From assembly GCA_025054715.1 (NCBI GenBank), contig JANWYH010000007.1:1-64000 (forward strand): a stretch of 64,000 nucleotides of DNA. Reading direction: 5' to 3'. The stretch is from Pyrinomonadaceae bacterium (GTDB lineage: Bacteria > Acidobacteriota > Blastocatellia > Pyrinomonadales > Pyrinomonadaceae). How positions within the stretch are numbered: position 1 is the first letter of the stretch; the number at the start of each line of letters is the position of its first letter. Both the position numbers and the translations under genes were made by a program. Positions 6,866 to 29,654 of this stretch are shown here, piece by piece. Under the pieces are notes generated by a model. It was not told the DNA's origin, ran no database searches, and saw only the letters and a program-made list of their open reading frames with translations.

Positions 6866-7699
6866 CTATAGAAGTTCTCTTAAGGGCTTTTTTAACGACT
6901 GCATCATATTTTCAAATTCATTGAAATCAATTTGTTGAGCGCTGTCTGAAAGAGCTTTTTCAGGCTGAGGATGCACCTCAACAATGATTCCATCGGCTCC
7001 GACTGCAATAGCAGCCTTTGCAGTCGGAGTTATCAAGCTTCTTTTACCTGTGGCGTGAGATGGGTCAACTATTACGGGCAGATGTGATAATTCTTTAACG
7101 AGAGCTACACCAGCAAGATCAAGCGTATTTCTCAAGGAATTATCAAAAGTTCTGATACCGCGTTCGCATAAGACAACACGTTCGTTTCCACCTTGAAGAA
7201 TATATTCAGCCGCAAGAAGCCATTCTTTAATAGTTGCTGAAAGACCTCTTTTCAAAAGAACAGGCTTTCTAATCTTTGCTATTTTTTTTAACAGAGCAAA
7301 GTTTTGCATATTTCTTGCGCCTATTTGAATCATATCTGCATAGTCACAAACAATAGGCAAATCTTCTTCACTCATTACTTCTGTAACTATCGGTAATTCA
7401 GCTCGATCGCCAGCTTCTTTTAGCAGCTTTAGTCCCTCAAGCCCTAGGCCTTGAAAGTCATAAGGTGAGGTGCGCGGCTTATACGCTCCACCGCGTAGGA
7501 TAGCGGCACCGCTTCTTTTAACTGCGAGAGCGGTTTCTATGACTTGCTCTTTTGATTCGACCGAGCAAGGCCCAGCGATTACAACCGCCTTTTCGCCACC
7601 TATGGAAACGTGACCAACTTTGACGATGGTTCTGTCGTTAGGCCTTTTTTTCAGTGTTAGAAAATTTTCCGAGATAAAACTACTTGCTGCATCTAGCAT
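6866..7699 (-). CDS. aroF: 3-deoxy-7-phosphoheptulonate synthase, type I-beta core
   Basis: Condenses phosphoenolpyruvate and erythrose 4-phosphate, the first step of the shikimate pathway. The 277 residues carry the I-beta signatures [46 protein letters not shown] and DPSHATG. An N-terminal ACT or ferredoxin-like regulatory domain is missing: the TIM-barrel core begins about 40 residues in. In other bacteria such bare cores are regulated by contact with AroQ-type chorismate mutase, which is encoded two genes upstream here. The ATG at 7699 overlaps the end of the prephenate dehydratase-like gene by 7 bases, so this is the last gene of a three-gene operon controlled by the attenuator at 8532-8674. 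It converges on the FHA-PrsW gene with a 2-base gap. Confidence 0.93.
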
Positions 7700-8244
7700 A
7701 ACCTTCTTTCTCCTACTAAATAGAAAAGAGTTGAATTGTTAGGACTATCAGAGATGTTTTCCCTTAAAACCTTTCCGCCGTAAATTTCCGCCGCACGAAT
7801 GCTTCCAATGGCTGCTATTTCACGACAACCTAAGCTTACTACGCATCTTACACTGATTGCTGTGTCTTCTGCACTCAAGGCGTAAAGGTGAGAATTTTTT
7901 TCTAGAAATCTTCTGCATTGATTCAAAGCTTCAGCTTGAGAGACGATCACCTTTATTTTTTCCAGATATGAATCTTTTGTTCCTATCAAAGCATGTTTTA
8001 TCGGCAAGTATGTTTCTTTAAGAACTTTTAGACTTGAATTTTCAAGTAAGTAAGTGGCCGATTTTATTTCTCCTATTATCTTGTTCCATACGGGTATTAC
8101 TGCGAAGTCCGCTTTACCATCGAGTATAGATTCGAAAACTGCGGAAAAAGTTTTGCATTCTAAAATTTCGCAATCGTTCTCTAGGAGCTTGTTGACAGCT
8201 TGCTCGCTATATGAGCCTCTAATTCCTTGAATGGCCACCTTCAT
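7693..8244 (-). CDS. pheA: Prephenate dehydratase-like protein, no ACT domain
   Basis: By family, prephenate dehydratase converts prephenate to phenylpyruvate for phenylalanine synthesis. The 183-residue protein covers the whole periplasmic-binding-like PDT fold (GSYSEQA 10-16, [15 protein letters not shown] 127-131, [10 protein letters not shown]) and stops without the usual C-terminal ACT domain that senses Phe. Several hallmark motifs differ: the usual PIENS is PVWNK (51-55), SHPQAL-QC is SQAEALNQC (102-110), and the catalytic TRF motif is TLF (172-174), keeping Thr172 but losing Arg. It is either a diverged dehydratase or a non-catalytic paralogue. Gene order (ATGA overlap with chorismate mutase, 7-base overlap with DAHP synthase) supports a role in Phe synthesis. 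Feedback by Phe may have moved to the transcript leader. Confidence 0.75.
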
Positions 8245-8516
8245 AATTTTTCGAGAGATTGCGCTTCAATCTGTATGTTTCTCGACTCTCTAATCAAAAC
8301 CTTGAAAATTCTTTCTAGTGCATCGTTGCTTATAAAGCCAGCATTTTTCGATAGAGCGTTTTCTAAAATTTGCTTTTCCCTCTGCAGATCAACTACGGGA
8401 AGTTGTTTTTTAAGTTTGAAAATACCGATTTTTCGGCATAGAACGGCTCTTTGATTGATTAGTCTGACTATTTCTGCATCTATCATATCTATCTCACGTC
8501 GCCAATCTTCAATCAT
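8241..8516 (-). CDS. Chorismate mutase, AroQ class
   Basis: Rearranges chorismate to prephenate, the branch point to Phe and Tyr. This 91-residue all-helical protein aligns with the E. coli P-protein mutase domain. The expected active-site residues can be placed: R7, R23, K34, D43, R46, E47 (in DLQREKQ) and Q82. It starts at ATG 8516 behind GGAGG (8521-8525 on the plus strand) and ends in an ATGA overlap with the dehydratase-like gene, so the two are probably translationally coupled. As a free-standing mutase it may also serve as the regulatory partner of the bare DAHP synthase core, as known for some AroQ/I-beta pairs (inference). It is the first structural gene after the attenuator. Confidence 0.92.
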   Translation of the reverse strand: MIEDWRREIDMIDAEIVRLINQRAVLCRKIGIFKLKKQLPVVDLQREKQILENALSKNAGFISNDALERIFKVLIRESRNIQIEAQSLEKL

Positions 8517-8531
8517 TTTTCCTCCAAAAAC

Positions 8532-8562
8532 AAAAAAGCCGTGAAACTTTTCGTCTCACGGC
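8532..8562 (-). terminator. Attenuator terminator in the aromatic operon leader
   Basis: On the minus strand GCCGTGAGAC (8562-8553) pairs with GTTTCACGGC (8547-8538), 10 bp with one G.U, around a GAAAA loop. Six T (8537-8532) follow. It lies between the leader peptide and the chorismate mutase ribosome-binding site, so it would stop transcription before the first structural gene. Confidence 0.88.
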
Positions 8563-8587
8563 TGAAGGTTTTTGACTTTTCTTATCT

Positions 8588-8674
8588 TTAATCTTTTATG
8601 CACAAAGCCTCACCTTCAGCCGTTTTGCCGAAGTAAAACCAGAAAAAGCCGAAGGTGAAACTTAATGTTTTCAT
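8588..8674 (-). CDS. Phe-rich leader peptide of the aromatic operon
   Basis: A 28-codon open frame starting ATG at 8674 and ending TAA at 8588-8590. Residues 6-15 read FTFGFFWFYF: six Phe (codons TTC and TTT mixed), one Trp and one Tyr in ten residues. The remainder (GKTAEGEALCIKD) is ordinary. This matches in size, composition and position the PheL-type leader peptides of enterobacterial pheA operons, although sequence and phylum differ. There is no clear Shine-Dalgarno; the ATG sits 9 nt after a perfect TATAAT, so the leader mRNA may be leaderless or nearly so. Its job would be to measure charged tRNA-Phe through ribosome stalling, not to make a functional product. Confidence 0.85.
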   Translation of the reverse strand: MKTLSFTFGFFWFYFGKTAEGEALCIKD

Positions 8675-8683
8675 CTTGTTGTT

Positions 8684-8712
8684 ATTATATTCATCAGAAG
8701 CAGAGTTGTAAA
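8684..8712 (-). promoter_or_regulatory. Promoter of the aromatic operon
   Basis: On the minus strand TTTACA (8712-8707), exactly 17 bases, then a consensus TATAAT (8689-8684). A start about 7 bases further would fall within a few bases of the leader-peptide ATG at 8674. It lies back to back with the promoter of the 8751 gene, with the two -35 boxes side by side. Confidence 0.8.
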
Positions 8713-8750: not shown

Positions 8751-10664
8751 ATGACTAGCAATCGTTTGATCATGCTTTTTTTGCTGCTACTGTCTTCTTG
8801 CTCTTTTGAGTATGATAGCAACGCTATTTGGACAGTTAGGACGTTTGCAGGATTCCTTAAGGAATTTGAAGAGCCTTTCGGACTTGCTGTTGATAATAAG
8901 GGAAACGTCTATGTTTCAGACGGTCAAAAAAACTCGATTTTTCGAGTTTCTCCGAAAGGAGCAGTAGAACTTTTAACGGGCAGTCTTAATACGCCTTCTC
9001 ACATTGCTTTTGACAGAAAGGGAGCGTTGCTGGTTGCTGACACAGGTTCTCATACGATTAAGAGAATAAATCTTGACAGCAATCAAATAGAAATTGTTGC
9101 TGGTGTAGAAGGTAAAAGAGGATATTTAGACGGTGATTCGAAGACGGCGCTTTTTAATGCTCCCATTGGCATTGCAGTTTCGGGTGATAAAATTTTCGTA
9201 TCTGATACTTACAATGATAAAATTCGTGTAATTGAAGATGGCAAAGTGAAAACCCTAGCGGGCGGTGTTCAGGGATATGTAGATGGACCTGAAGCCGAAG
9301 CAAGATTTAACACGCCTTGTGGAATTGTTGCTCTTTCTGACGGAAGTCTGCTGGTTGCGGACCTTCTTAATCGTGCAGTAAGAAAAATATCAGATGGCAA
9401 TGTTACAACCTTAATTCGTGATTTGGAAGCTCCTGTTGCTTTAGCTGTTGATAGTGATGGTGTGCTTTATATTGCTGATGGAGATAGCATAAAAGTTGTG
9501 AAGAACTTATCTTCTTCCGAAGTAGAGCTTCTTTCTTCTGATGAAGCTGGTCTTGAAGATGGTGCGGCACGAGAATCAAAATTTATGCGACCTTCTTCAA
9601 TCTCAGTTTACGGGAAAACCGTGTTCGTAGCAGATTCAGATAACAGCCTTGTAAGAGTGATTACCTCAAAGCCTATAGGCAAAGAGGTTTCAGATGAGGA
9701 AAAGCGTTATCTCATAGGTGAAGTAAAGAACTTTTCTTCGAGATGGTGCTATGAACCGCCTGAAAGAAAACGTGACATAGCGGGAACTTTTGGTGAAATT
9801 CGTGGTGAACTTAAACAAATCAATGATGATGCCTGGTTTCATAACGGAGTTGATATAGCAGGTTACCACGGTGAGAAAGCCTTTTTTATGAGAACTGAAA
9901 AGGTGCTTCTTCCTTCCTCCGTATTTAACTTTGCAGACATGCGCGAAAGCTTACGACTTCCTCTGTCAGGATACGTTCATATAAAATTGGGTCGTGACGT
10001 TAAGGATCGCCCTTTTGAGGATGAGAGATTTCAATTTTATTTTGATGAGCAAGGTAAGCTAAAAAGCTTGCGGATTGCAAGAGGCACTGTTTTCTATGAA
10101 GGTGAGCCTATCGGCACTCTTAATCAGATGAATCATGTTCATTTAATTATTGGAAGAAGAAGTCTTATACAAAATCCTTTTCTGGCTGTTAATTTTCCTG
10201 GGATTTCTGATACTATTCAGCCAATAATTGAAGACATTTATTTTGTAAATGAGTTTTGGCAACCAGTTAGCCTATCGAAGCCTAACGGCAGGGTAAGAGT
10301 TTTAGTGCGTGCTTTTGATAGAATAGACGGAAATCCGGCGAGAAGAAAGTTAGGATTATACAGCATTGGTTACCGGCTTCTAGAAGGCGATTCTATCGTT
10401 TTTGATAAATTTCCTTCAATCGTTTTCGATAAGCTTCCTCGTCAGAAACGAGCTTCTCTGGTTTATGCTCCTGGGAGCCAGTCAGGCGTAAGTCTGGAAA
10501 CCTCTTTTATTTACATAGCTACAAATCACCTTCAAGATGGTGAAATCGTAGAAGATTTTTTAGATGTTGATAGTCTAGAGCCTGGCAATTATAAACTGCA
10601 AGTGATAGTTGCGGATTTTTTCGGTAACAGGGCGCAAAAAGAGATTGTTTTTACGAAAAAGTAG
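8751..10664 (+). CDS. Lipoprotein with NHL repeats and an M23-like peptidase domain
   Basis: A 637-residue envelope protein. The N-terminus has a lipobox (LLLLSSC, Cys17). Residues about 28-305 are NHL-type propeller repeats (EPFGLAVDNKGNVYVSD, PSHIAFDRKGALLVAD, NAPIGIAVSGDKIFVSD). From about 330 comes an LytM/M23-like module: FGEIRGEL, then FHNGVDIAG with H364 and D368, and NHVHLIIG with H462 and H464. This H-x(3)-D plus H-x-H layout matches the zinc ligands of M23 endopeptidases. The last 150 residues look beta-rich and are unassigned. Cell-wall cleavage or binding guided by the propeller is inference. ATG 8751 lies 9 bases after TATAAT without Shine-Dalgarno; an internal ATG (residue 8) is possible. 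Confidence 0.72.
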   Translation: MTSNRLIMLFLLLLSSCSFEYDSNAIWTVRTFAGFLKEFEEPFGLAVDNKGNVYVSDGQKNSIFRVSPKGAVELLTGSLNTPSHIAFDRKGALLVADTGSHTIKRINLDSNQIEIVAGVEGKRGYLDGDSKTALFNAPIGIAVSGDKIFVSDTYNDKIRVIEDGKVKTLAGGVQGYVDGPEAEARFNTPCGIVALSDGSLLVADLLNRAVRKISDGNVTTLIRDLEAPVALAVDSDGVLYIADGDSIKVVKNLSSSEVELLSSDEAGLEDGAARESKFMRPSSISVYGKTVFVADSDNSLVRVITSKPIGKEVSDEEKRYLIGEVKNFSSRWCYEPPERKRDIAGTFGEIRGELKQINDDAWFHNGVDIAGYHGEKAFFMRTEKVLLPSSVFNFADMRESLRLPLSGYVHIKLGRDVKDRPFEDERFQFYFDEQGKLKSLRIARGTVFYEGEPIGTLNQMNHVHLIIGRRSLIQNPFLAVNFPGISDTIQPIIEDIYFVNEFWQPVSLSKPNGRVRVLVRAFDRIDGNPARRKLGLYSIGYRLLEGDSIVFDKFPSIVFDKLPRQKRASLVYAPGSQSGVSLETSFIYIATNHLQDGEIVEDFLDVDSLEPGNYKLQVIVADFFGNRAQKEIVFTKK

Positions 10665-19415: not shown

Positions 19416-19886
19416 TTATTCATTTTTTTGAGAACTCCCAGAAGAAGCAGCCTTAATCTCAATCCTGCGAGGCTTTGCTTCTTCGCGCTTTGCCATGGTT
19501 AGCCTAAGAACGCCATTATCAAATTCAGCGTTTATGCGCTCAGTATCAACCGTTGGTGGAAGCGTGAAGGAACGGGTAAAGCTACCATAGCGACGCTCTA
19601 TGCGGTGATAGTTGTCGCTTTCTTCCTTCTTCTCAAACTTTCTTTCGCCTTGAATCGTCAAGACATTATTTTCGATTGAGATGTTTACGTCTTCAGGCTT
19701 CATTCCGGGAAGCTCTGCTTCGAGAACGACTTGATCTTTGTTTTCATATATGTCAACATTTGGAGTCCATGCTCCACTCATCAATTCGTCATCGAAAGTG
19801 CGCGAAAACGCGGAAGCGAACAAACGATTCATTTCTTCTTGAAGATTACGAATTTCACGGATTGGATCGTATTTAATCAGTGTCAT
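19416..19886 (-). CDS. hsp20: Small heat-shock protein, Hsp20 family
   Basis: ATP-independent holdase that binds unfolding proteins and hands them to ClpB/DnaK. The 156 residues contain an alpha-crystallin domain (about 42-140): PNVDIYENKDQVVLEAELPG, MKPEDVNISIENNVLTIQGE, YGSFTRSFTLPP and the A-x-x-x-NGVL-type strand AEFDNGVLRLTMAK. An I-x-I-type C-terminal anchor (RRIEIKA) is present. Start ATG 19886 has AAGGAGG at good spacing. It opens the hsp20-clpB-grpE direction and has its own strong promoter. Confidence 0.95.
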   Translation of the reverse strand: MTLIKYDPIREIRNLQEEMNRLFASAFSRTFDDELMSGAWTPNVDIYENKDQVVLEAELPGMKPEDVNISIENNVLTIQGERKFEKKEESDNYHRIERRYGSFTRSFTLPPTVDTERINAEFDNGVLRLTMAKREEAKPRRIEIKAASSGSSQKNE

Positions 19887-29581: not shown

Positions 29582-29654
29582 GCTCGCGTAGCTCAGAGGA
29601 TAGAGCGTCTGCCTCCGGAGCAGAAGGTCGCTGGTTCGAGTCCAGCCGCGAGCA
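29582..29654 (+). tRNA. tRNA-Arg (anticodon CCG)
   Basis: A 73-nt cloverleaf. Acceptor GCTCGCG (29582-29588) pairs with CGCGAGC (29647-29653), discriminator A. D-stem GCTC/GAGC, anticodon stem TCTGC/GCAGA with loop CTCCGGA (anticodon CCG, 29615-29617), and T-stem GCTGG/CCAGC with TTCGAGT. CCA is not encoded. TAAAAT about 15 bases upstream may be its -10 box. A SpoU methyltransferase gene starts 17 bases downstream. Confidence 0.97.

Follow-up and report, generated by a model that had tools for sequence, protein, structure and literature searches.

A probable ribosome-mediated attenuator of an aromatic operon in Pyrinomonadaceae, with relatives across the Acidobacteriota

Chorismate mutase (CM), prephenate dehydratase (PDT) and one of the two DAHP synthases of a Pyrinomonadaceae bacterium are, with a probability of about 90%, controlled by a ribosome-mediated transcription attenuator through the supply of aromatic aminoacyl-tRNA. 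The switch is located on the minus strand of the window, i.e., the whole stretch of 64,000 nucleotides of DNA that was analysed; the genome holding the window comprises 2.45 Mb in 23 contigs at an estimated completeness of 99%. An earlier note had read the site as a pheA-style attenuator, and this reading holds: the helices covary among relatives, and masking by a ribosome frees the antiterminator in a folding model. The mechanism of ribosome-mediated attenuation itself is known; the newest part, in our judgement, is a possible retuning between aromatic and Cys control codons in sister leaders.

The promoter of the switch, TTTACA (-35, 8707-8712) and TATAAT (-10, 8684-8689) at a spacing of 17 nt, matches the sigma-70 type in 11 of 12 positions, and a TTGACA-like -35 with 17/18 spacing is also found before most relatives' leaders. 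Nine nucleotides 3' of the -10 hexamer begins a leader ORF of 28 codons (8588-8674, ATG at 8674, TAA at 8588), MKTLSFTFGFFWFYFGKTAEGEALCIKD. Codons 6-15 (8630-8659) serve as control codons and read F T F G F F W F Y F; eight of the ten are aromatic, a run for the product of the operon. Segment 1 (8648-8658) pairs with 8610-8620 over 11 bp, one of them G.U, whereas segment 2 (8610-8623) can alternatively use 8612-8623 to pair with segment 3 (8558-8569). This antiterminator duplex consists of 12 perfect bp (8558-8569 with 8623-8612), and segment 3 overlaps the 5' arm of the intrinsic terminator (3:4, 8532-8563), which is built from the stem 8563-8553/8547-8537 and T6 at 8537-8532. The stem counts 11 bp, one of them G.U; assigning the last T to the U tract leaves 10. 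To within this one base pair, the promoter, leader, helices, terminator and their order are base for base those of the earlier note. The Shine-Dalgarno sequence of the chorismate mutase gene, GGAGG, follows at 8521-8525, and its ATG at 8516. The gene upstream of the attenuator (8751-10664, plus strand) is divergent; therefore, the terminator is not that gene's. The attenuator region folds with -56.4 kcal/mol; shuffled versions give -34.8 +/- 3.7 (z -5.8), and none of 200 folds as well. In this AT-rich stretch, a lone promoter (3 vs 3.8 expected) or a lone terminator (2 vs 1.9 expected) is within chance; what lies beyond chance is the arrangement of the elements and its conservation, neither promoter nor terminator singly.

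These elements could control the operon as follows: An ample supply of Phe-tRNA, and probably of Tyr- and Trp-tRNA, would let the ribosome run through the leader. With segment 2 either under the ribosome or bound to segment 1, the 3:4 terminator would form, and transcription would stop at ~8532. A shortage of aromatic aminoacyl-tRNA would make the ribosome stall in codons 6-15 and thereby cover segment 1. In this stalled state, segment 3 would be taken by segment 2 ahead of the synthesis of segment 4, which would prevent the terminator and let transcription run on into the operon. What is shown is the anatomy in the sequence, its conservation, covariation in each of the helices and a codon bias specific to the leader frame; we infer that the ORF is translated and ribosomes stall on it, that the helices compete kinetically, what the signal is and where transcription starts.

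A leader alignment scored for covariation and folding with masking had been put forward as checks of the attenuator, and both speak for it. Alignment A1, which comprises 18 sequences of the window's own clade, was compared to 500 shuffles and to slid controls. All three helices covary, namely 2:3 (0.251 vs 0.150 shuffled), 3:4 (0.279 vs 0.134) and 1:2 (0.351 vs 0.248), each with 0 of 500 shuffles as high and each well above the slid controls. Several positions change in concert in three segments: columns 78/156/177 are G-C-G (9) or A-U-A (6), columns 83/151/182 are U-A-U (9) or C-G-C (6), and segments 2/3/4 occur as ACGGCT/AGCCGT/ACGGCT, GCGGCT/AGCCGC/GCGGCT, GCGGCC/GGCCGC/GCGGCC and ACGGCC/GGCCGT/ACGGCC. 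Only a segment 3 that pairs with segment 2 as well as with segment 4 would be expected to produce such a three-way pattern. The antiterminator and the intrinsic terminator are mutually exclusive, as they are in attenuators of the trp/phe type. In a broader set of 49 leaders, the 2:3 duplex overlaps the 5' arm of the terminator in 48, and it beats shuffles of segment 2 in 41 (p < 0.05), whereas the 1:2 duplex is individually significant in 18 (p < 0.05; window p 0.007) and weaker in several relatives; the relatives were selected by aromatic richness and their sequences are related, so these p-values are not independent.

For the folding model, the transcript was cut before segment 4, and the ribosome was placed on the control codons, at the stop codon, or left out. 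Masking of the control codons increases 2:3 pairing in 44 of the 49 leaders with respect to the free transcript and in 46 with respect to a ribosome at the stop codon; for the window, modelled pairing is 13.2 with this mask, 1.2 in the free transcript and 0 when the ribosome sits at the stop codon. A stalled ribosome is thus predicted to block the 1:2 protector helix, again as in trp/phe-type attenuators. At equilibrium, the terminator of the modelled full-length transcript wins in every case, which implies that the outcome has to be decided by kinetics, as it is in the trp attenuator.

The attenuator is common to many Acidobacteriota and no local oddity. Prephenate dehydratase loci were gathered from the family, the class and the phylum and scanned with a strict detector. 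It demands an ORF in which at least six of 10 residues are F/W/Y, together with an intrinsic terminator no more than 200 nt away; 31 of 94 loci have such a pair before the prephenate dehydratase gene, with 20-33 nt from leader stop to terminator. The same detector yielded 0 matches in 582 kb of control sequence, consisting of the other strand and the downstream sequence of the same loci. A relaxed version (at least five aromatic residues) made 20 false matches in 907 kb; for this reason, six of its 55 loci were dropped by eye. Of the 152 loci in the tree, which span the phylum, 62 have a Phe/Tyr-rich leader with a terminator before prephenate dehydratase (49 called by script, 13 added by eye). 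Carriers include most Pyrinomonadaceae whose CM and PDT genes are separate, the families f2 and f6 of the class and, outside the class, the family-level groups f22 and f27, the latter with nine Phe-only leaders; a DAHP synthase gene is close by in most relatives. In the clade with fused CM-PDT-ACT genes, the leader is absent in 19 of 21 rows. Presence or absence of the leader changes ~13 times on the PDT tree, the deep forks of which are weak. The short, pheA-like leaders of f27, another Acidobacteriota family (L120, L121, L123-L126, L130, L131 and L133; e.g., MTASRAFFFSFRTSGARVGGV), precede fused CM-PDT genes. Prephenate dehydratase was undetected in 43 of 135 genomes of the class (G003, G010, G013, G030, G034 and others), some of them >95% complete.

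Promoters of the type TTGACA-17/18-TATAxT are positioned before almost all leaders, and a Shine-Dalgarno sequence is absent in 42 of 49, including the window. Their translation hence rests on leaderless or Shine-Dalgarno-less initiation, and, judged from the sequences, initiation of the latter kind appears to be general among the leaders. The -10 hexamer is 6-14 nt from the ATG in eight leaders (9 in the window, 6 in the same-genus relative L004) and 18-79 nt in the remaining leaders with a promoter call. The genome of the window has only a faint genome-wide signal of leaderless transcripts, a TANNNT excess near -14; in Acidobacteria, an estimated 13.3% of genes are leaderless (PMC3160421). 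A leaderless architecture of the window's leader, with a predicted start, is probable: the suggestion made earlier is plausible, and the close -10 is shared with the same-genus relative. Its supposed novelty for an attenuator is not upheld, since leaderless attenuator ORFs are known in Streptomyces (PMC8079986) and leaderless or Shine-Dalgarno-less leader peptides in Corynebacterium, as mentioned in PMC4046766 with reference to Morbach 2000.

Downstream of the switch, Pfam matches bear out the proposed aromatic operon: on the minus strand follow chorismate mutase (PF01817, 91 aa, 8244-8516), a prephenate dehydratase domain without ACT domain (PF00800, 183 aa, 7693-8244) and a DAHP synthase core without FXD regulatory domain (PF00793, 277 aa, 6866-7699). 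Named relatives of the dehydratase are mostly from Pyrinomonadaceae and other Acidobacteriota MAGs, which bears out the lineage suspected in the earlier note, and a query of viral_contigs with the DAHP synthase found no relative. The second DAHP synthase of the genome (L183:2653-3711) possesses the N-terminal FXD regulatory domain, whereas the attenuated copy is core-only. The Arg of the TRF motif (residue 172 in the window's dehydratase, 7693-8244) is present in all 127 ACT-containing prephenate dehydratases examined and lost in 24 of 33 ACT-less ones, the window having TLF; Glu52 is often lost as well in the ACT-less enzymes. The PDT tree contains three ACT losses, too few events for statistics: two of them gave rise to 27 ACT-less loci that all kept the leader, with a degenerate one in L111, and the third (f3, g39) has no leader. 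The leader is found before PDT-ACT genes, too. That the controlled enzymes lack feedback domains in one lineage suggests that allosteric control was traded for attenuation, which would have replaced the lost feedback.

Short, Cys-packed ORFs with the same type of terminator in Pyrinomonadaceae were also picked up by R1, a covariance model built from the aromatic leaders. They precede an operon for a cysteine-synthase-like PLP enzyme, a PLP enzyme of Cys/Met metabolism, JAB and ThiS-ThiF-rhodanese proteins; counted by eye, roughly 18 of 30 family loci of cysteine synthase have such a leader. Loci with Cys-rich leaders include L238, L239, L241, L242, L243, L249, L277-L282, L289, L293, L295, L297, L298, L300, L301 and L306, among others. 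Their 2:3 pairing beats shuffles in five of six leaders tested, and the leaders appear to read cysteine. In the stretches read of the window's own genome, no Cys-rich leader was seen, and ~750 kb of this genome (some stretches overlapping) contained no further convincing leader peptide; a Leu-rich match at window position 19423 shares sequence with the end of an hsp20-like gene that precedes a clpB-like gene and was dismissed as a chance ORF. The cross-matches of R1 were rejected as evidence of homology. Because many weak ones are bare terminators (L244-L248, L250, L251), a sequence-only model of 14 aromatic leaders (R2) was built with the terminator left out. In 113 kb of cysteine synthase loci, R2 has five matches, all at the leader position: L297 (E 1.4e-7), followed by L298, L303, L301 and L291, with alignments that place TTC GCC TTT ACG (F A F T) opposite TGC GCC TGT ACG (C A C T). 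The simplest reading of these five leaders is a common origin with the aromatic ones and a change of control codons; the likeness may also be convergence through shared RNA constraints. We are evenly divided on the wider proposition that Pyrinomonadaceae possess paralogous attenuators whose specificity was switched between aromatic and Cys by control-codon substitutions while the RNA switch was kept, the aromatic branch having in effect replaced feedback by the ACT domain.

What the attenuator senses, and whether the leader ORF serves it at all, is reflected in the codons. In the leader frame, 7.2 of 12 codons are F/W/Y, compared to 1.7 in the other frames, a difference that is partly built in, as this frame was the search criterion. 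Between close relatives, the leader peptide evolves near-neutrally (synonymous fraction 0.22 vs a neutral expectation of ~0.18), with the F/Y class kept and poor conservation outside the control cluster, and of the 14 changes at F/Y positions, 12 turn F into Y or Y into F. Both observations fit selection on the aromatic codon class rather than on the peptide. A functional small hydrophobic protein, the terminator of which merely limits downstream transcription, would explain why the ORF has a promoter and then a strong terminator, but we give it almost no credence given this mode of evolution and the covariation of segments 2 and 3 across the boundary between ORF and terminator. It is also highly improbable that the attenuator senses a protein or small-molecule ligand and that the ORF is incidental: mutually exclusive helices alone do not tell what the sensor is, and the terminator dominates at full length, but enrichment of aromatic codons in a single frame, tolerance of swaps between F and Y, Cys-codon versions before a Cys operon and the lack of any match to an Rfam family or riboswitch argue for translation as the sensor.

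With translation as the sensor, the same switch might respond to Phe alone, like enterobacterial pheA. Phe is the commonest control codon (41%, compared to 19% Tyr and 1.5% Trp), and the leaders of f27 contain F only; on the other side, almost every leader of the class has Tyr codons, F and Y interchange, and a DAHP synthase gene is near in most loci. Sensing of Phe alone is hence rather unlikely, if by no means far-fetched. Since F and Y codons interchange and the window's leader also has a W codon, the term 'Phe attenuator' is too narrow: from the stalling on Phe codons originally envisaged, an attenuator with conserved aromatic codons stands and the restriction to Phe probably does not. The signal is probably the supply of aromatic aminoacyl-tRNA.

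No description of amino-acid attenuation in Acidobacteriota was found in the open-access papers searched; the comparative survey of attenuation by Lopatovskaya 2010 might list Acidobacteria. Here, such a switch can be followed through a phylum and is backed by covariation, and its leaders form a series, F-only, F/Y, F/Y/W and Cys, which allows one to ask directly how the specificity of an attenuator evolves. The suggested exchange of allosteric control for attenuation in one lineage is likewise testable.

Among known systems, pheA (leader pheL) and pheST (leader pheM) of enterobacteria are leader-peptide attenuators. They share with the attenuator described here the leader with Phe codons, the alternative of 1:2/3:4 and 2:3 pairing, the U-tract terminator and the control of prephenate dehydratase/chorismate mutase; they differ from it by phylum, and the attenuator of the window has mixed F/Y/W codons, no Shine-Dalgarno sequence, separate genes for CM and an ACT-less PDT and, in addition, a DAHP synthase. 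It works like Rfam Phe_leader and is not a member: the Rfam leader families, Phe_leader included, gave no match at the gathering threshold or at E <= 10. The only Rfam match in the window at gathering threshold is a tRNA (29582-29654). Short ORFs with aromatic codons also precede DAHP synthase genes in other phyla, namely the aroF leader peptide of C. glutamicum with its Phe-Tyr-Phe codons (PMC4046766, Neshat 2014) and uORFC-13-1 before aroF of Acholeplasma, which has at least one Phe (PMC8632094); in the window's leader, by contrast, about eight of ten control codons are aromatic, and the operon includes CM and PDT genes. The leaderless attenuators of Actinobacteria (Leu, Trp, Ilv and others in Streptomyces and Corynebacterium), as far as they are covered in PMC8079986 and by Morbach 2000 as cited in PMC4046766, likewise have an ORF without Shine-Dalgarno sequence that starts from, or nearly from, the first base, whereas the start site in the window is a predicted one. 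For the Cys leaders of Pyrinomonadaceae, the counterpart, compared by description, is uORFC-8-2, the cysS leader of Rhodobacterales, a uORF with Cys codons of presumed attenuation type (PMC8632094), which precedes a tRNA synthetase gene and not a cysteine synthase operon.
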